A DNA stretch of 64,000 nucleotides from Candidatus Planktophila dulcis (GTDB lineage: Bacteria; Actinomycetota; Actinomycetes; Nanopelagicales; Nanopelagicaceae): positions 930,001 to 994,000 of the forward strand of contig NZ_CP016777.1 in the NCBI RefSeq assembly GCF_002288225.1. The letters are read 5' to 3'. Both the position numbers and the translations under genes were made by a program. How positions within the stretch are numbered: the stretch's first letter is position 1; each line of letters opens with the position of its first letter. The notes below the pieces were generated by a model that ran no database searches, was not told the origin of the DNA, and was given only the letters and a program-made list of their open reading frames with translations. This document shows positions 51,313 to 58,376 of this stretch, one piece after another.

Positions 51313-52269
51313 CTACACAATTATCGGTAAATCGAGCTTTTGTGAGAGGTAATGAGCGCTTTTCTGAACCCCTGCGGCAACTGCTGTGCCATGGGCGATA
51401 AATGAATGTGAGAGCCGGGCTCCATCCCCGATTGTGACGTCATCTCCAATGATGCAGTCATCGATATGAACCCCTGCGCCAATGGTGCAGCGAGCACCGA
51501 TAGATGTTCCACCGGCAATCACCGCATCGGGTGCAATGGTGGTGCCAGCCATCGCCTGGAAATCGCCTTCAACAAGATCGCGCGAGCCCTTAAAGAGCGC
51601 CGCTGGAGTTCCCACATCTAACCAATAGGACTGCTCTTTATATCCAAAGACAGATCTACCACTTGCAACGAGTGCGGGGAAAGTTTCGCGTTCAACACTG
51701 ACTACTGTGCCGAGAGGGATTTTATCAATCACATCAGGGCTAAATACATAGCATCCAGCATTGATTGAGTTCGTGACTGGGTTATCCATCTTCTCAAGAA
51801 AAGCTGTGACGCGACCATCGGCATCGGTTGGGACGCAACCAAAGGCGCGAGCATCTTCCACATCAATCAAGTGAAGTGTGACATCTGCCTTGTTATCGGT
51901 ATGAAACTTGATTTGATCTGCAATCGAATGGCGACTTAAGACATCACCATTGAAGACAACTACTGGTTCATCTCGTCCAAGTAGCTCTGCAGCATTACGA
52001 ATTGCACCACCTGTGCCAAGAGGTTCTTTCTCAACGGCGTAGAGGATCTTCATCCCCCACTTAGCTCCATCACCGAAGTAGGGAGTAAAGATCTCTGCAA
52101 GATATGAGGTTGCTAAGACGAGTGTGTGAACTCCAGCTTTCTTCGCAGCAAGGATTTGATGTTCTGTGACAGGAAGACCTGCAACAGGAAGCATCGGCTT
52201 AGGTGATTCATCTGTCAGAGGTTTCAGTCGTGTACCAAAACCACCAACTAAAAGAATGCCTACAGCCAT
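51313..52269 (-). CDS. sugar-1-phosphate nucleotidyltransferase (probable mannose-1-phosphate guanylyltransferase)
   Basis: 318 residues: Rossmann-like nucleotidyltransferase with ILLVGGFGTRLKPLTDESPKPMLPVAG at the N-terminus, FNGDVLS metal site, then a left-handed beta-helix tail of hexapeptide repeats (about 240-300: TIAPDAVIAGGTSIGARCTIGAG style). Resembles Rv3264c, which lies near whiB2 and is assigned GDP-mannose synthesis. Base and sugar specificity cannot be proven from sequence. ATG overlaps the dapC stop by one base (TAATG). Confidence 0.87.
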   Translation of the reverse strand: MAVGILLVGGFGTRLKPLTDESPKPMLPVAGLPVTEHQILAAKKAGVHTLVLATSYLAEIFTPYFGDGAKWGMKILYAVEKEPLGTGGAIRNAAELLGRDEPVVVFNGDVLSRHSIADQIKFHTDNKADVTLHLIDVEDARAFGCVPTDADGRVTAFLEKMDNPVTNSINAGCYVFSPDVIDKIPLGTVVSVERETFPALVASGRSVFGYKEQSYWLDVGTPAALFKGSRDLVEGDFQAMAGTTIAPDAVIAGGTSIGARCTIGAGVHIDDCIIGDDVTIGDGARLSHSFIAHGTAVAAGVQKSAHYLSQKLDLPIIV

Positions 52270-53366
52270 TATTTGGCACCTACTTTGCTGATGATGCGTG
52301 CTGCAGCATCTTTTATCTGCGCATCCGTAGCTGTCAGTGCGATACGAATATGGGATGATCCGCCTTCGCCATAGAAGATACCGGGAGTTGCGATGATGCC
52401 AAGATCTGCAAGCCATGAGACTGAGTCCCAACAATCTTCTTTGCGGGTGGCCCAGATATAGAGCCCGGCTTCTGAATCTTCGATCGTAAATCCTGCTGCA
52501 ACAAGTGCCGGTGCAAGAGTTGCGCGACGAGCGTTATAGCGCCCACGTTGTTCTGTCACATGCTTTTCATCAGAGAGAGCTGCAATCATCGCGTGCTGCA
52601 CAGGCAAGGGCACCATCATCCCTGCATGTTTGCGCACCTCAAGGATTCGAGCAATCAACGCAGCATCTCCCACAATGAAGGCAGCACGATATCCAGCCAT
52701 AGATGAGCGCTTGGAGAGTGAGAGGACAGAGAGAATGTTGGTGTTATCTCCCCCTGTGTATTGCAAGATGGATGTCGGTTTTACGGAATCTCCAAATTCG
52801 AGATAGCACTCATCAGAGACGACAACGCTCTTGTGCTTGCGTGACCAATCGATTGCAGCCTTTAACTCGGCTTCAGTATGAACGCGACCTGTCGGGTTTG
52901 ATGGTGAGTTCACCCATGCCATATCTGCCTGTGGCCATGAAGTGGCATCGAGTGAGACAGGTGTTGCTTTGGCTTGTGCAAGAAGAGAGCCCACCACATA
53001 GGTTGGATATGCAACATCAGGATAGAGAACACTCTGTGCTTCAATGAAAGTAGGAAGCCATGCAACAAACTCTTTTGAACCAATAAGTGGAAGCACGCCG
53101 AAGTCACCTGTTGCTCCAAGATATTTCTTTGCCCATGCCGTAATTGCTTCACGCAGTTCAGGAGTTCCTACGGTGACGGGATAACCTGGTGAGTTAGATG
53201 CTTTCTGAAATGCTTGCTGAATAAATTCAGGAGTTGGATCTACTGGTGTTCCCACGGAGAGATCGATTGCTCCTTGTGGGTGCGCTCTTGCGATAGCTCC
53301 GTATGGGGCTAGCGCATCCCAAGGAAAATCAGGAAGTTTTTGGCGCAAGAGCAGTGACTTCTGCAT
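52269..53366 (-). CDS. dapC: succinyldiaminopimelate aminotransferase (DapC type)
   Basis: 365-residue PLP aminotransferase of lysine/diaminopimelate synthesis. N-terminal LPDFPWDALAPY, IDLSVGTPVDPTP, VNSPSNPTGRVH, SDECYLEFGD and the Schiff-base Lys in SLSKRSSMAGYRAAF are typical of actinobacterial DapC encoded beside fdxA. ATG 53366 overlaps the fdxA 3' end by 38 nt; a TTG at 53348 would shorten the overlap. Translation is likely coupled to fdxA. Confidence 0.9.
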   Translation of the reverse strand: MQKSLLLRQKLPDFPWDALAPYGAIARAHPQGAIDLSVGTPVDPTPEFIQQAFQKASNSPGYPVTVGTPELREAITAWAKKYLGATGDFGVLPLIGSKEFVAWLPTFIEAQSVLYPDVAYPTYVVGSLLAQAKATPVSLDATSWPQADMAWVNSPSNPTGRVHTEAELKAAIDWSRKHKSVVVSDECYLEFGDSVKPTSILQYTGGDNTNILSVLSLSKRSSMAGYRAAFIVGDAALIARILEVRKHAGMMVPLPVQHAMIAALSDEKHVTEQRGRYNARRATLAPALVAAGFTIEDSEAGLYIWATRKEDCWDSVSWLADLGIIATPGIFYGEGGSSHIRIALTATDAQIKDAAARIISKVGAK

Positions 53367-53649
53367 GGTCGGTATTTGTCTCCCCGACCTTCGCAGCTCC
53401 CCCAGGTGAACCGAGTTCGATAAAGAATTCTGTATTGATCTTCTTATAGCCCTGCCACTGACCTGGAACATCATCTTCGTAGTAGATAGCTTCCACTGGA
53501 CATACTGGTTCGCACGCACCGCAATCAACGCATTCATCAGGCTGGATATAGAGCATGCGGGTTCCGTCATAGATGCAGTCGACGGGGCACTCCTCGCGGC
53601 ATGACTTATCTTTTACATCCACACACGGTTCAGCAATTACATATGTCAC
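53329..53649 (-). CDS. fdxA: 7Fe ferredoxin
   Basis: 106-residue ferredoxin carrying a [3Fe-4S] and a [4Fe-4S] cluster. Cysteines at 9, 17, 21, 25, 40, 43, 46 and 50 with the CVDCGACEPVCP motif, then the conserved tail YYEDDVPGQWQGYKKINTEFF. Donates low-potential electrons to unidentified redox partners. The GTG start has GGAGGA 6-7 nt upstream. It shares a transcript with dapC and diverges from the cysS-like gene. Confidence 0.95.
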   Translation of the reverse strand: MTYVIAEPCVDVKDKSCREECPVDCIYDGTRMLYIQPDECVDCGACEPVCPVEAIYYEDDVPGQWQGYKKINTEFFIELGSPGGAAKVGETNTDHAEVTALAPKTS

Positions 53650-53717: not shown

Positions 53718-55322
53718 GTGCACGATTATGGTTGCTATATGGCCTCCATGAGTTTGCGCACGCAAATAGCGCAGGCGCTCGGCAAGCGAGCGACTATCCG
53801 CCTGCGCGATAGCGATGGGGGCTTGCGAGATATCGTGGGCGTTTTACAGAGTGAGACAGAGCTGATTAACCGCCGTGGTGAAGTAGTGAACTTCAACCCT
53901 GATGAGGCCGTGGCCTTTCGAGTGATCCCTGTATTTAATCGTCGTGATGTGTCGACAGGTTCACTATCTATATATGACACCAAGTCAAAATCATTACACA
54001 CCATTGCCGGCACTGACGGAGTAGTGCGGATCTATTGCTGTGGTCCGACTGTCTATCGCGATGCTCATGTGGGAAACCTTCGCACCTTCTTACTCTCAGA
54101 TCTCATCTCTCGCACTCTGCAGATGACAGGACTTGATGTGAGCCTGGTGCAGAACATCACCGATGTTGGCCATATGGCTGATGATTTTGAAGAAGACAAG
54201 ATGTTGGCAGAGTCTGCAAAGACAAAGGTGAATCCTTTTGAGATTGCCCGCACATTTGAAGATAGATTCCATATTGATTTAGAGCGTCTGAATATTCAGC
54301 CTGCAGCTTCATATCCACGAGCATCAGAGAAGATGGCTGAGATGATTACTGCAATCGAGAAATTGATTGCGATGAAGCGCGCTTATGTTGGTAGCGATGG
54401 ATCTGTCTACTTTGATGCTACATCTTTCCCCACTTATGGCGCTCTGAGTGGAAATAAACTTGATTCACTTCAACCAGGACATCGATATGAATTCACCGAT
54501 GAAGGTGGCAAGCGTTTTCATGCAGATTGGGCGCTCTGGAAATTAGCAGGTGCTCGAACACAAATGATTTGGGATTCACCATGGGGTGCTGGTTTTCCGG
54601 GCTGGCACATCGAGTGCAGCGCAATGTCTATTGAGCTCCTCGATGCTCACGTCGATCTTCACCTTGGCGGTATTGATCTGCGCTTTCCTCACCATGAAAA
54701 TGAGCGAGCACAATCGAACTCACTCACAGGCAATGAAACCGTTGATACGTGGGTTCATGGCGAGCACCTGCTCTTTGAGGGGCGCAAGATGTCAAAGAGC
54801 GCAGGAAATGTTGTCCTGCTGCAGGATGTTATTGATCGTGGGTTGGATCCACTCTCCTTGCGTTTTGCACTCCTTGAGAACCGATACCGCTCACAGATGG
54901 ATTTAAGTTGGGCATCTCTTGAAGCAGCTCATTCCACTCTTAAACGATGGAGACAGCTACTGAGTAATGCTGGGACAAGTGCAGAGATGAAATTTGATCA
55001 AGAAGTAAGTGATGCCCTAACAACTGATCTCGACACACCACGCGCTATGCAGCGCATTCGCACCATTGAAAAGGACTCAACTATTGGGGCACTCGATAAA
55101 CGCGCGCTCTTTCTCTTTGCAGATCAAGTATTCGGGTTGGACCTTGATCGTGGAGTTGAACAACGAGAAGTAAGTAGTGAGATTCAAGCGTTATTGGATG
55201 CTCGCATCACAGCGCGTGCTGAGAAAAATTGGAGCTTGAGTGATTCTTTACGTGAGCAGTTAACCAATGCTGGACTTGAAATCAATGATGGAGCAGAAGG
55301 TCAAAGTTGGAGCTGGAAGTAG
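53718..55322 (+). CDS. cysS: cysteinyl-tRNA synthetase with N-terminal SH3-like domain
   Basis: 534 residues. From about residue 82 it is a class I CysRS: IYCCGPTVY, HVGN (117-120) as the HIGH motif, ECSAMS (C300), PHHENE (H325-E327) completing the zinc site with C108/C109, and KMSKS at 357-361. MshC is unlikely because the KMSKS, zinc and C-terminal DALR-like features follow CysRS. Residues 14-72 (RTQIAQALGKRATIRLRDS onwards, to AVAFRVIPV) form a small beta domain resembling the N-terminal domain of Rv0428c-like GNAT acetyltransferases. GTG 53718 has CAGGAG upstream, so the extension is translated. Activates cysteine for tRNA; the extra domain has no known role here. Confidence 0.87.
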   Translation: MHDYGCYMASMSLRTQIAQALGKRATIRLRDSDGGLRDIVGVLQSETELINRRGEVVNFNPDEAVAFRVIPVFNRRDVSTGSLSIYDTKSKSLHTIAGTDGVVRIYCCGPTVYRDAHVGNLRTFLLSDLISRTLQMTGLDVSLVQNITDVGHMADDFEEDKMLAESAKTKVNPFEIARTFEDRFHIDLERLNIQPAASYPRASEKMAEMITAIEKLIAMKRAYVGSDGSVYFDATSFPTYGALSGNKLDSLQPGHRYEFTDEGGKRFHADWALWKLAGARTQMIWDSPWGAGFPGWHIECSAMSIELLDAHVDLHLGGIDLRFPHHENERAQSNSLTGNETVDTWVHGEHLLFEGRKMSKSAGNVVLLQDVIDRGLDPLSLRFALLENRYRSQMDLSWASLEAAHSTLKRWRQLLSNAGTSAEMKFDQEVSDALTTDLDTPRAMQRIRTIEKDSTIGALDKRALFLFADQVFGLDLDRGVEQREVSSEIQALLDARITARAEKNWSLSDSLREQLTNAGLEINDGAEGQSWSWK

Positions 55323-55323
55323 C

Positions 55324-55635
55324 TTAAGGATTGCGTAAGACTGCAACAACGCCTGCAACAAAGCCGATAGTTAAGAGTGCACTGCCTTGGTTATCTCCTT
55401 GAATCAGAAGTTCCTCACCAACGCCAAATGAACCAGCAATCGAAATCACAGCCAACCAAGCACTGAGGGCGATGAGTTTGTAGCGACGCTTTCCATAATG
55501 GCGACCCACATACCAAATACCTAAATAGGTAGCGAAGATTCCAACGCTCACACCAACTGGTGGCAACGTCTGGTGCACAAGGGTTGCGGAAATAGCGATC
55601 ATTGCGCCAAAGAGGAGTGAGGATAGAAATTGCAT
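55324..55635 (-). CDS. small polytopic membrane protein beside mshB (Rv1171-like position)
   Basis: 103 residues with about four membrane helices (5-22, 26-45, 54-70, 84-101) and a basic loop GRHYGKRRYK. In mycobacteria a membrane protein of similar size follows mshB. Its ATG overlaps the mshB stop by one base. No function is known, and the similarity to Rv1171 is judged from size and context only. Confidence 0.65.
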   Translation of the reverse strand: MQFLSSLLFGAMIAISATLVHQTLPPVGVSVGIFATYLGIWYVGRHYGKRRYKLIALSAWLAVISIAGSFGVGEELLIQGDNQGSALLTIGFVAGVVAVLRNP

Positions 55636-56504
55636 TACGAAGGATTTATCCCTGCAAAGAGATCCATCTCGTGTCCACGAGAATCCAATGGCTCAGACTT
55701 TTCTCCCTTTACAAGTGTGTAGTACTCATTGCCCCACACTTGAAGTCCTAAGTTGTTGGAGAGTGCAAAGAAGGGGCCATCAACCTCAATCTGCGTTGAG
55801 TGTGCTCGCATTGCATCCATCTTCTTCTCAACATAGGCATTGCCATCAACCATCGCATGAACGAAAGAGTCGTCCTTTGCGAAGGGAAGATCTTCAGCTT
55901 TCTCTGCTCCCATAAAATCAGAGCCAAGCTTCTTCATCGCATCGATTCCCTCTTGAATGACAGAGCGTGGCATGACATTCCAATAGATCTTTTCAATATT
56001 CCAGGACGATTTCTCAGATGCTCGCATGGCAACGCGGTGAGCTTGAATGTGATCTGGGTGCCCATAACCACCAATCTCGTCATATGTGATGAGTACGTGT
56101 GGCTTCACTTGATCAATAACCTTCACTAACTCACTTGATGCTTCCTCTAAGTCAGCCTGCCAGAAGACATCGGGGCGATTATTAGGTTCTGTTCCCATCA
56201 TCCCGCTATCACGATACATCTTTTCTCCTTCACCAAGGAAGCGATGGTCAGTTATGCCAAGTGCTTTCATTGCATCAGCTAGCTCGCCTACGCGATGTTC
56301 ACCTAGAGAATCGGTTTCGTGAGCAGCTAAATGAGCAAGATCCTTAACAAGAACTTCGCCTTCTTCACCACGCGTGCATGTCACCAATGTGACATCTGCG
56401 CCGAGTGCTGCGTACATCGCCATCGTGCTTCCATTATTAATCGTCTCATCATCAGGATGCGCATGAACGAGCAGCATGCGATAACCCTTATAGCTAGAGA
56501 GCAT
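55635..56504 (-). CDS. mshB: mycothiol biosynthesis deacetylase MshB
   Basis: Removes the acetyl group from GlcNAc-inositol in mycothiol synthesis; zinc enzyme of the LmbE family. 289 residues with HAHPDDE at 14-20, TCTRGEEGEV, YRDSGMMGTE and the zinc histidine in GYGHPDHIQAH. RDSGMAGT-like and EEGEV motifs favour MshB over the amidase Mca. ATG 56504 overlaps the moeZ stop by one base. The presence of mshB implies mycothiol as the main low-molecular thiol; mshA, mshC and mshD are not in the window. Confidence 0.9.
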   Translation of the reverse strand: MLSSYKGYRMLLVHAHPDDETINNGSTMAMYAALGADVTLVTCTRGEEGEVLVKDLAHLAAHETDSLGEHRVGELADAMKALGITDHRFLGEGEKMYRDSGMMGTEPNNRPDVFWQADLEEASSELVKVIDQVKPHVLITYDEIGGYGHPDHIQAHRVAMRASEKSSWNIEKIYWNVMPRSVIQEGIDAMKKLGSDFMGAEKAEDLPFAKDDSFVHAMVDGNAYVEKKMDAMRAHSTQIEVDGPFFALSNNLGLQVWGNEYYTLVKGEKSEPLDSRGHEMDLFAGINPS

Positions 56505-57685
56505 TAATAGACCGGCAAGGTTGTATCGATTTGCTTAGCCCATGCAATAACGCCACCAAAGACGTGGGATGCATCAGCAAAGCCTGCATTCTTCAAGATT
56601 GCTAAGCACTCAGCAGAGCGAACTCCACTCTTACAGTGAAGAACTATCGGCTTATCTTGTGGAAGTGATGCAAGAACACTGCCATCGATAAATCCTTGCT
56701 TAGGAATGAGATGCGCAGTTGGAATATTGACGATTTCATACTCACTGGGTTCACGAACATCGATGAGATAGAAATTATCCTTATTATCAATTTTAGCTTT
56801 GAGATCTTGCACAGTAATTGTCGAGCCAGAGCTAGCCTCTTGTGCTGCCTCTGAGAGTGTTCCGCAGAATGCTTCGTAATCAGGAAGCAGCGCAGTTTGT
56901 GTTGCATTCTCGCTACACAATGGGCAGTTAGGATCTTTGCGCACCTTAATCTTGCGAAATGTCATATCGAGTGCGTCATAGACCATCAATGAACCAATCA
57001 GTGGTTCACCAACTCCTGTCAGCACTTTGATTGCCTCTGTTGTCTGAATAGAACCGATGGTTGCGCAGAGAACTCCGAGCACTCCACCTTCGGCACAACT
57101 TGGAACCATTCCTGGAGGTGGTGGTTCTGGATAGAGACAGCGGTAGCAAGGACCGTACTCGGCCCAGAACACACTTGCCTGACCATCAAAGCGATAGATA
57201 GAGCCCCAGACATACGGCTTCTTCAGTAGCACGCATGCATCGTTAACTAAATAACGTGTAGCAAAGTTATCTGTTCCATCAACAATGATGTCGTACTGAG
57301 AAAAAATCTCCATCACATTGGAGTTATCAAGACGAGTCTCGTGAAGAATGACATTGACGTAAGGATTGATTTCGGCAATCTTCTCCTTGGCACTGAGGGC
57401 CTTGCTCTTTCCAATATCTGATTGGCCATGAATAATCTGGCGCTGCAAGTTAGATTCATCGACTGTATCGAATTCAACGATGCCCAATGTGCCAACGCCA
57501 GCTGCTGCAAGATACATAAGTGCAGGAGAGCCGAGTCCACCAGCGCCAACGCAGAGAACTTTTGCATTCATCAAACGTTGCTGACCCGCCATTGCTACAT
57601 CAGGGATGATCAAATGGCGGCTATAGCGGCGCACTTCATCAACGGTTAGCGCAGGTCCTGGCGTGACTAGAGGAGGCGTCTTCAT
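56504..57685 (-). CDS. moeZ: MoeZ: adenylyltransferase/sulfurtransferase for sulfur carriers
   Basis: 393 residues: an E1-like ThiF/MoeB domain (GAGGLGSPALMYLAAAG with ATP loop, CxxC pairs CYRC and CPLC for zinc) fused to a C-terminal rhodanese domain whose active Cys lies in LHCKSGVRS. MoeZ activates and thiocarboxylates MoaD-, CysO- and ThiS-type carriers. ATG 57685 was chosen because the family begins at a PGPALTVDEVRRYSRH-like strand; the longer frame overlaps tetR. Adjacent genes follow the Rv3206c region order. Confidence 0.93.
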   Translation of the reverse strand: MKTPPLVTPGPALTVDEVRRYSRHLIIPDVAMAGQQRLMNAKVLCVGAGGLGSPALMYLAAAGVGTLGIVEFDTVDESNLQRQIIHGQSDIGKSKALSAKEKIAEINPYVNVILHETRLDNSNVMEIFSQYDIIVDGTDNFATRYLVNDACVLLKKPYVWGSIYRFDGQASVFWAEYGPCYRCLYPEPPPPGMVPSCAEGGVLGVLCATIGSIQTTEAIKVLTGVGEPLIGSLMVYDALDMTFRKIKVRKDPNCPLCSENATQTALLPDYEAFCGTLSEAAQEASSGSTITVQDLKAKIDNKDNFYLIDVREPSEYEIVNIPTAHLIPKQGFIDGSVLASLPQDKPIVLHCKSGVRSAECLAILKNAGFADASHVFGGVIAWAKQIDTTLPVY

Positions 57686-57699
57686 GCAGGTAATTCTGC

Positions 57700-57731
57700 C
57701 GTACTGTGCCTTTCGTGGCGAATTCAGTACG
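57700..57731 (+). promoter_or_regulatory. inverted repeat in moeZ-tetR divergent promoter
   Basis: CGTACTG (57700-57706) and CAGTACG (57725-57731) form a perfect 7-bp inverted repeat with an 18-nt spacer. The right arm overlaps the TACGAT hexamer that sits 7 nt before the tetR ATG. It is a candidate operator for the TetR protein. Confidence 0.5.
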
Positions 57732-57740
57732 ATTCGCACA

Positions 57741-58376
57741 ATGACTACAGAATCAGCAACTGCAAACAATTCGCGTTCAGATAAGTCTCGCCTTCCTCGC
57801 GATGAAAGACGCGCAATTTTGCTCTCTGCTGCCCTCGAAGTTTTCACTGCGGCTGGGTATCACTCCGCAGCGATGGATGAGATTGCAGATCGAGCAAATG
57901 TCAGCAAGCCAGTTCTCTACCAACATTTCCCATCGAAGCTCGATCTCTACCTAGCCGTTCTCGATCTCCATATTGATTCACTGGTCTTTGAAATTCAGAA
58001 AGCAATTTCTTCAACGCCTGATAACGAGCGACGAGTGCATGTGACCATCGAGGCTTACTTCAACTTTATTGAGAACGAAGGAGAAGCATTCCGTCTGCTC
58101 TTTGAAAGCGACATGAGTGTTGAACCACAAGTGCGTGAACGTCTCAATCGAATGACATATGACTGTGCTGCGGCTGTGTCAGGTGTTATTTCAAATGACA
58201 CTGGCCTTCCCAAGGAAGCTGCAATGATGCTTGGAGTTGGGTTAATTGGTTATGTCCAGGTCACAGCTCGCCACTGGCTTGAGCGTGATAGCAAACTCAC
58301 GCGTCAGCAAGCTATGGATCTCGTTGAAAACCTCATGTGGCGAGGAATTTCTGGATTTCCCCGTACAGACTCTTAG
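57741..58376 (+). CDS. TetR-family transcriptional regulator
   Basis: 211 residues: helix-turn-helix near 30-70 (ILLSAALEVFTAAGYHSAAMDEIADRANVSKPVLYQHF is the standard TetR motif order), followed by an all-helical ligand domain. Positioned as Rv3208 between moeZ and the DUF3107 gene. ATG 57741 is supported by TACGAT 7 nt upstream; the longer frame would start inside moeZ. Ligand unknown; autoregulation and moeZ control are plausible because of the inverted repeat between them. Confidence 0.9.
   Translation: MTTESATANNSRSDKSRLPRDERRAILLSAALEVFTAAGYHSAAMDEIADRANVSKPVLYQHFPSKLDLYLAVLDLHIDSLVFEIQKAISSTPDNERRVHVTIEAYFNFIENEGEAFRLLFESDMSVEPQVRERLNRMTYDCAAAVSGVISNDTGLPKEAAMMLGVGLIGYVQVTARHWLERDSKLTRQQAMDLVENLMWRGISGFPRTDS

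Follow-up and report, generated by a model that had tools for sequence, protein, structure and literature searches.

A second cysteinyl-tRNA synthetase with an N-terminal SH3-like barrel in Candidatus Planktophila dulcis and related actinobacteria

Introduction

MshC, the cysteine:GlcN-Ins ligase, is a paralogue of cysteinyl-tRNA synthetase (CysRS) that has no anticodon-binding domain. A second CysRS, termed CysRS*, was described in Desulfobacterales by Mukai (2017), as recounted in a review (PMC9437257), with SelC* and SelB* as its partners. A small SH3-like barrel forms the N-terminus of the acetyltransferases of the Rv0428c/CG3035 type (SH3-GNAT); according to Petri et al. 2013 (PMC3827942), CG3035 is the N-acetylglutamate synthase of C. 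glutamicum and a ferredoxin gene adjoins the SH3-GNAT gene. No description of a fusion between an SH3 barrel and a CysRS was found in the literature searched, and no wider claim is made.

Here we describe such a fusion, CysRS2, encoded by cysS2 in Candidatus Planktophila dulcis. The window, i.e. the whole stretch of DNA that was analyzed, comprises 64,000 nucleotides (positions 930,001 to 994,000 of contig NZ_CP016777.1). Like canonical CysRS (TIGR00435), the protein possesses the catalytic domain, the zinc ligands, the KMSKS motif and the C-terminal domain and scores above the family cut-off; in contrast to it, CysRS2 is the product of a second copy at another locus, starts with an SH3 barrel and is less conserved between species. 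With the SH3-GNAT proteins it shares the N-terminal SH3 domain and the fdxA/dapC locus, where relatives encode the full two-domain protein, whereas in the window protein the acetyltransferase part is gone and a CysRS follows the SH3 domain. It resembles MshC in being a CysRS paralogue of an actinobacterium encoded near mshB, but scores 235 against 485 bits on the MshC model, has an anticodon domain and coexists with a true MshC encoded elsewhere. The likeness to CysRS* lies in being a second CysRS and, in one clade of relatives (dC), in the loss of the anticodon-binding domain; the window protein itself differs from CysRS* in having that domain as well as the SH3 barrel.

Results

The open reading frame at 53718-55322 of the forward strand, 534 aa long when read from a GTG at 53718, contains the residues quoted in a preliminary description of this DNA, in which a CysRS with an additional N-terminal domain had been proposed. 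Both parts indeed lie in one reading frame (Table 1), and the fusion is also present in relatives. The CysRS core reached 383.3 bits against TIGR00435 (curated cut-off 340), and only 235.5 bits against the MshC model TIGR03447 (cut-off 485.1). The catalytic residues and the zinc-ligand positions, which we take to be C108, C300, H325 and E329 by analogy with the E. coli CysRS, are present in the window protein and kept in 102-103 of 103 aligned CysRS2 rows, while the third position of the KMSKS motif is S in 81 and A in 22 of the 103. Because these catalytic and zinc-binding residues are kept, CysRS2 should be able to activate cysteine. The match extends into the C-terminal domain in the window and in 97 of the 102 other CysRS2 proteins. 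A model of the whole protein (pTM 0.72) does not fix the placement of the SH3 domain on the CysRS, and pLDDT falls below 50 at residues 72-79 of the linker.

Table 1 Features of the cysS2 locus in the window. Residue numbers refer to the protein read from GTG 53718.
Feature	Position	Strand	Remarks
dapC-type aminotransferase, putative	52269..53366	-	open frame from 53570; probable start, placed from sequence, 53366; name from the preliminary description
fdxA ferredoxin, divergent neighbour	53329..53649	-	4Fe-4S domains; name from the preliminary description
TATGGT, possible -10 box	53727..53732	+	6 nt before ATG 53739; conserved DNA block, TANNNT counts
cysS2, SH3 barrel and second CysRS in one frame	53739..55322	+	about 527 aa from the probable ATG start
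SH3-like small beta barrel, SH3_Rv0428c type	53775..53921	+	residues 20-68
Linker between SH3 and CysRS	53931..53957	+	residues 72-80; low confidence in model
CysRS catalytic domain (PF01406)	54015..54932	+	Pfam match
HIGH-type motif (HVGN)	54066..54077	+	H117 and G119 in 102/103 rows, the remaining row being a gap
KMSKS motif	54786..54800	+	K, M, K and S in 103/103 CysRS2
CysS_C anticodon-binding domain (PF23493), C-terminal	55167..55310	+	29 bits, cut-off 23
103-aa protein, convergent neighbour	55324..55635	-	no Pfam match over cut-off
mshB	55635..56504	-	TIGR03445, 359.8 bits, cut-off 224.35
MoeZ-type adenylyltransferase/sulfurtransferase, upstream of mshB	56504..57847	-	686.5 bits, cut-off 647

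The first ~70 residues had been assigned to the SH3-like domain of Rv0428c-type acetyltransferases, and this assignment was confirmed by several approaches. A profile whose sole input was 30 SH3-GNAT proteins from relatives matched the window protein with an E-value of 9e-19, and BLASTP against an SH3-GNAT protein of the same genus gave 29 identities in 50 positions (58%, E 4e-19). The structure prediction that the preliminary description had named yielded a five-strand barrel for the domain alone (AF2, pLDDT 87.8). Pfam SH3_Rv0428c (PF24551) matched residues 20-68 with an E-value of 0.0035 on the fragment, below the Pfam cut-off (18.7 for the domain alone vs a gathering score of 27); L202, which encodes a complete SH3-GNAT in the same order, reaches 16.9 and also falls short, so that the cut-off does not separate the two. 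When PF24551 was searched with the A3 rows, 27 of 27 matched at E ≤ 1 (best 1.1e-5), and positions 1-57 of model NF049894 were matched weakly by the N-terminus (E 0.037). Searching PDB sequences with the N-terminus returned chance-level matches alone (E 0.34 and above). The SH3-like N-terminal domain is thus real and far above chance. Structural neighbours of the SH3 model (Foldseek/VIA) were GerQ, Hfq/Sm, RimP and GatD at Z 7-8.4. Likeness to Hfq/Sm, RimP and GatD was rejected as proof of RNA binding, as such values are common for barrels of this kind; the predicted fold permits RNA binding but does not demonstrate it.

The genome, a single contig of 1,348,019 bases that is 99.93% complete, was searched for another cysS and for mshC, as had been suggested, and both were found. 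A canonical cysS (453 bits against TIGR00435, cut-off 340) lies at a separate locus, flanked by frames that are presumably ispDF-like and rlmB-like, and a separate MshC scores 536.1 bits (cut-off 485.1). The gene studied here is therefore a second CysRS, its product being 35% identical to the canonical enzyme of the same genome. One tRNA-Cys was present among the 40 tRNA matches obtained with model RF00005, which is not the selenocysteine tRNA model; ARAGORN additionally called a tRNA whose anticodon is irregular (tRNA-???) at L247 101-174 (G000:C1:449935-450008). At the cysS2 locus of the window no GNAT catalytic domain was detected; the best match to NF049894 in this genome lies at another locus and covers positions 237-290 only (E 7.6e-10). 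An MshD match at G000:C1:72226-72705 (156.6 bits, cut-off 163.1) spans positions 127-289, the second half of that model. At a threshold of E 1e-110, a canonical cysS was recovered from 116 of the 121 genomes sampled in the order, and the five genomes without a match are not claimed to lack the gene. Between species CysRS2 is less conserved than its canonical counterpart, with identities to the window's proteins of 65% vs 90% in G002, 71% vs 92% in G009 and 87% vs 96% in G003, as would be expected of an accessory enzyme.

As the preliminary description stated, the gene sits beside fdxA and dapC. fdxA was found upstream and divergent in all 103 CysRS2 loci. Within the stretches examined, mshB follows downstream in 101 of them, and of the two exceptions one stops at a contig end; the convergent 103-aa protein has a BLAST match in 80 of the 103 loci and in none of the 15 g4 loci. 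A link of cysS2 to mycothiol, also suggested earlier, is not supported: MshC is separate, CysRS2 scores far below the MshC cut-off, and mshB also occupies the same place in nine loci that have an SH3-only gene and no CysRS2.

The start at GTG 53718, preceded by CAGGAG, had been taken as an argument that the N-terminal extension is translated. The SH3 domain lies inside the coding part with either start considered here, and this part of the argument stands; the GTG start itself is doubtful, CAGGAG being absent from most aligned relatives. In an alignment of the window with nine relatives, GCACGATTANGGTT is conserved as DNA, yet in the window's frame (CAC GAT TAN) it contains a stop triplet in four of the nine (L177, L181, L182 and L186), two of which (L177, L186) also carry frame-shifting insertions nearby. 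Of 97 loci, 55 have a TANNNT box 4-10 nt upstream of a possible SH3 start, compared to 58 of 2104 control codons, where the control consists of internal codons counted per codon and several starts were tried in some of the 97 loci. A simple sigma-70 scan found no promoter upstream of cysS2, and an Rfam search of its surroundings gave nothing at E 0.1. Taken together, the in-frame stops in relatives, the TANNNT box and the lack of conservation of CAGGAG indicate that GTG 53718 is probably not the start; ATG 53739 with its -10-like box fits better, giving a putative protein of ~527 aa, and we infer a leaderless mRNA that would begin at this ATG.

To place the fusion among its relatives, the surroundings of fdxA were compared across 121 genomes of the order, a survey that had been proposed earlier and that revealed a stepwise series of architectures. 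All counts derive from our own profiles and reading frames and not from annotation, and since completeness in the sample ranges from 80% upward, genes that seem absent may reflect gaps in the assemblies. An acI-type locus is also contained in records that bear the title Bifidobacterium breve or Streptomycetaceae (L182, L195, L205, L208; L183, L186), and these titles look wrong. CysRS2 is encoded beside fdxA in 103 of the 121 genomes. An SH3-GNAT gene followed by CysRS2 occurs in 31 of these loci (including G103, whose CysRS2 match lacks its 5' end and contains two stops), an SH3-only mini-gene followed by CysRS2 in 42, and SH3 fused to CysRS2 in 24, five of which lack the anticodon domain. In the remaining six loci, all of genus g7, CysRS2 stands without SH3; a profile search of all 121 genomes left these six g7 genomes without it. 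Among the 18 genomes without CysRS2, eight have an SH3-GNAT gene (one cut by a contig end), one (G120, 80% complete) has neither SH3 nor CysRS2, and nine (L300-L308) possess a stand-alone SH3 mini-gene, flanked by fdxA and mshB, in the absence of SH3-GNAT and CysRS2. With a presence in 114 of 121 genomes, SH3 is the most persistent part of the locus. The SH3-only gene and CysRS2 overlap by 4 nt, stop on start, in 35 of 42 loci; for the spacing, the start codon closest to the preceding stop was taken, a choice biased towards short distances, and one of the 31 GNAT loci gave no start.

These gene orders bear directly on the earlier proposal that the GNAT half was replaced by cysS. In the form weighed here, an incoming cysS would have inserted into an SH3-GNAT gene and displaced its catalytic half, and would now serve mycothiol synthesis. 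The identity of the SH3 domain and the fdxA/dapC site were given correctly, but an SH3-GNAT gene is directly followed by the same cysS2 in 31 of 103 loci, and a separate MshC is present. cysS2 was therefore already the downstream neighbour when the GNAT half disappeared; gene order in related genomes led us to reject a replacement by a newly arrived cysS, and we regard this scenario as highly improbable. The comparison instead indicates that the GNAT part was lost and that the SH3 domain was then joined with the gene already there.

Starting from a GNAT-bearing ancestor, 12 GNAT losses were counted on the careful IQ-TREE phylogeny of CysRS2 and 10 on a quick tree, with at least 6 remaining after weak branches were merged. 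Treated as a plain label, GNAT absence requires 10 changes, at least 7 of them forced by starred branches, while the fused label requires 6 changes at the fewest, at least 5 being forced in the same way; a change of label on the tree may also be a reversal, and the trees rest on one substitution model (LG+G4) without a mixture option. A single clade of the 12 fused g1 rows was not rejected (p-AU 0.40), and the linker VFNRRD occurs in four of the five g1 fused rows inspected, while the fused rows of g4, g10 and g12 carry other linkers. Given this p-AU value and the similarity of the g1 linkers, two independent fusions inside g1 are not claimed. Of the ten GNAT losses on the quick tree, nine left SH3 in place, the exception being g7.

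In a clade of five fused g4 genomes (dC; L149, L150, L152, L153 and L156, corresponding to G087, G042, G064, G082 and G099), the anticodon-binding domain has been lost while the active site and SH3 are kept, and the reading frame now terminates within the 3' portion of the convergent mshB. This clade would suit CysRS2 being a ligase of the MshC or CysRS* kind that transfers cysteine to another acceptor (a small molecule, a special tRNA or a protein) presented by the SH3 domain. MshC likewise has no anticodon-binding domain; the same holds for CysRS* (PMC9437257). The lower conservation of CysRS2 relative to canonical CysRS in the same genomes (G002, G009) and the mshB and MoeZ-type neighbours also point in this direction. 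Set against it are the C-terminal domain, which is matched in the window, there above the Pfam cut-off, and in 97 of 102 others, the scores of 383 bits for cysS vs 235 for MshC, and the genomes of group f18 described below, in which an enzyme of this type is the sole CysRS match. We consider such a ligase unlikely; it is compatible with the gene history proposed here, and the likelihoods we attach to the several alternatives are not mutually exclusive.

Beyond the order, the preliminary statement that SH3-GNAT genes often lie beside fdxA held for 18 of the 30 best-scoring SH3-GNAT loci in the class, examined with flanks of 1.5 kb only, where the gene is divergent to fdxA; every one of the 12 exceptions falls in family f4. 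Among 395 other genomes of the phylum, 23, none of the same class, encode CysRS2-like proteins (39-49% identical, E ≤ 1e-80); of these 23, 20 regions were examined, 15 genomes were tested for the number of CysRS and nine loci were included in trees. An SH3 match lies upstream of the CysRS2-like gene in 5 of the 20 out-of-class loci (E 1.7e-13 to 3.7e-5, computed without filters for a database size of 20), four of the five with fdxA adjoining. The distance from the end of SH3 to the CGPT motif of CysRS is ~0.13-0.19 kb in four loci and ~0.87 kb in L289. Since SH3, CysRS2 and fdxA also occur together outside the class, the grouping either predates the order or was transferred as a unit. Weak SH3 matches were further noted in G244 and G264. 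In f18, each of the three genomes tested yielded a single CysRS match, the type-2 enzyme, so that this kind of enzyme can probably carry translation. At least two CysRS matches were obtained in each of the other 12 of the 15 genomes, and in five of the 12 an SH3 match lies upstream; across these 15 out-of-class genomes, CysRS number does not track SH3 alone.

Selection on the SH3 domain was estimated from same-genus pairs, ~50 codons and dS near 1.3, with pairs outside dS 0.15-2 dropped. The median omega was 0.09 for SH3-only genes (90 pairs), 0.21 for SH3 attached to GNAT (31 pairs) and 0.21 for fused SH3 (51 pairs). SH3-only genes are therefore under strong purifying selection. Within g1, the SH3-only median was 0.097 where CysRS2 is absent (8 genes, 12 usable pairs; G075, of g4, is left out) and 0.105 where it is present (25 pairs, 12 of 16 genes).

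Two further explanations were weighed against these values. The SH3 part could be an inert GNAT relic and the fusion neutral: where genes overlap by 4 nt, a small frame change is enough to fuse them, and fusions are scattered on the tree; the joinings of SH3 and CysRS2 as such could be by-products of overlapping frames. An inert relic is nevertheless difficult to reconcile with median omega values of 0.09 (SH3-only) and 0.21 (fused) and with the retention of the domain in 114 of 121 genomes, and we regard it as quite improbable. Alternatively, SH3 could be an obligate subunit of CysRS2, acting in trans as a mini-protein and in cis when fused, for example by aiding tRNA binding. Its persistence beside CysRS2 in nine of ten GNAT losses, about five independent fusions, the 4-nt overlaps and the joint occurrence of SH3 and CysRS2 outside the class would all agree with this. 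However, nine of 121 genomes have the SH3-only gene without CysRS2, and six have CysRS2 without SH3. A strict partnership is weakened by the former, which also lack SH3-GNAT, and SH3 is not relaxed in the eight genomes without CysRS2 that entered the omega estimate. Thus, CysRS2 does not appear to need SH3 (six g7 genomes), nor SH3 to need CysRS2; the unchanged omega tells against a role as subunit only, and we hold an obligate subunit to be improbable.

Discussion

The explanation that we favour, with moderate confidence, is that CysRS2 is an accessory second CysRS carrying the SH3 barrel of a lost Rv0428c/CG3035-type GNAT, and that the barrel serves as an adaptor. The comparison across the order supports an ancestral arrangement in which fdxA was divergent to an SH3-GNAT gene followed by cysS2. 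It likewise supports repeated deletion of the GNAT catalytic part, with a free SH3 gene of ~60-75 aa left behind whose stop usually overlaps the start of cysS2 by 4 nt, and a joining of the two frames in about five lineages, including that of the window. CysRS2 would activate cysteine and charge the single tRNA-Cys, given that some other genomes yielded no CysRS besides its relatives. The SH3 barrel, which persists even by itself, probably has a function of its own and may act as an adaptor that binds RNA or protein, independently of both GNAT and CysRS2. Being made with CysRS2 or tied to it, the barrel could bring cysteine activation to where the adaptor binds.

A further step, which we put forward tentatively and consider unlikely as it stands, would be that SH3, more than an accessory of the GNAT, forms the functional core of an unrecognized small actinobacterial protein (~60-75 aa). 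Paired with a dedicated second CysRS, through fusion or overlapping genes, it would make up a unit that charges cysteine onto a partly non-canonical acceptor, the last point being suggested by the fused clade without an anticodon-binding domain.

The fusion is real and uncommon, a synthetase paralogue with an appended domain whose evolutionary stages are unusually well represented. Two CysRS are mostly kept by actinobacteria even at small genome sizes (1.0-2.2 Mb in our sample), and the genome of the window maintains two for one tRNA-Cys gene, which calls for a reason. The natural series, from a two-domain neighbour to a free mini-gene, to a fusion and finally to a fusion without the anticodon domain, provides a case for studying how synthetases gain and lose appended domains. 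Moreover, the locus points to a conserved small barrel protein whose role can be tested directly.
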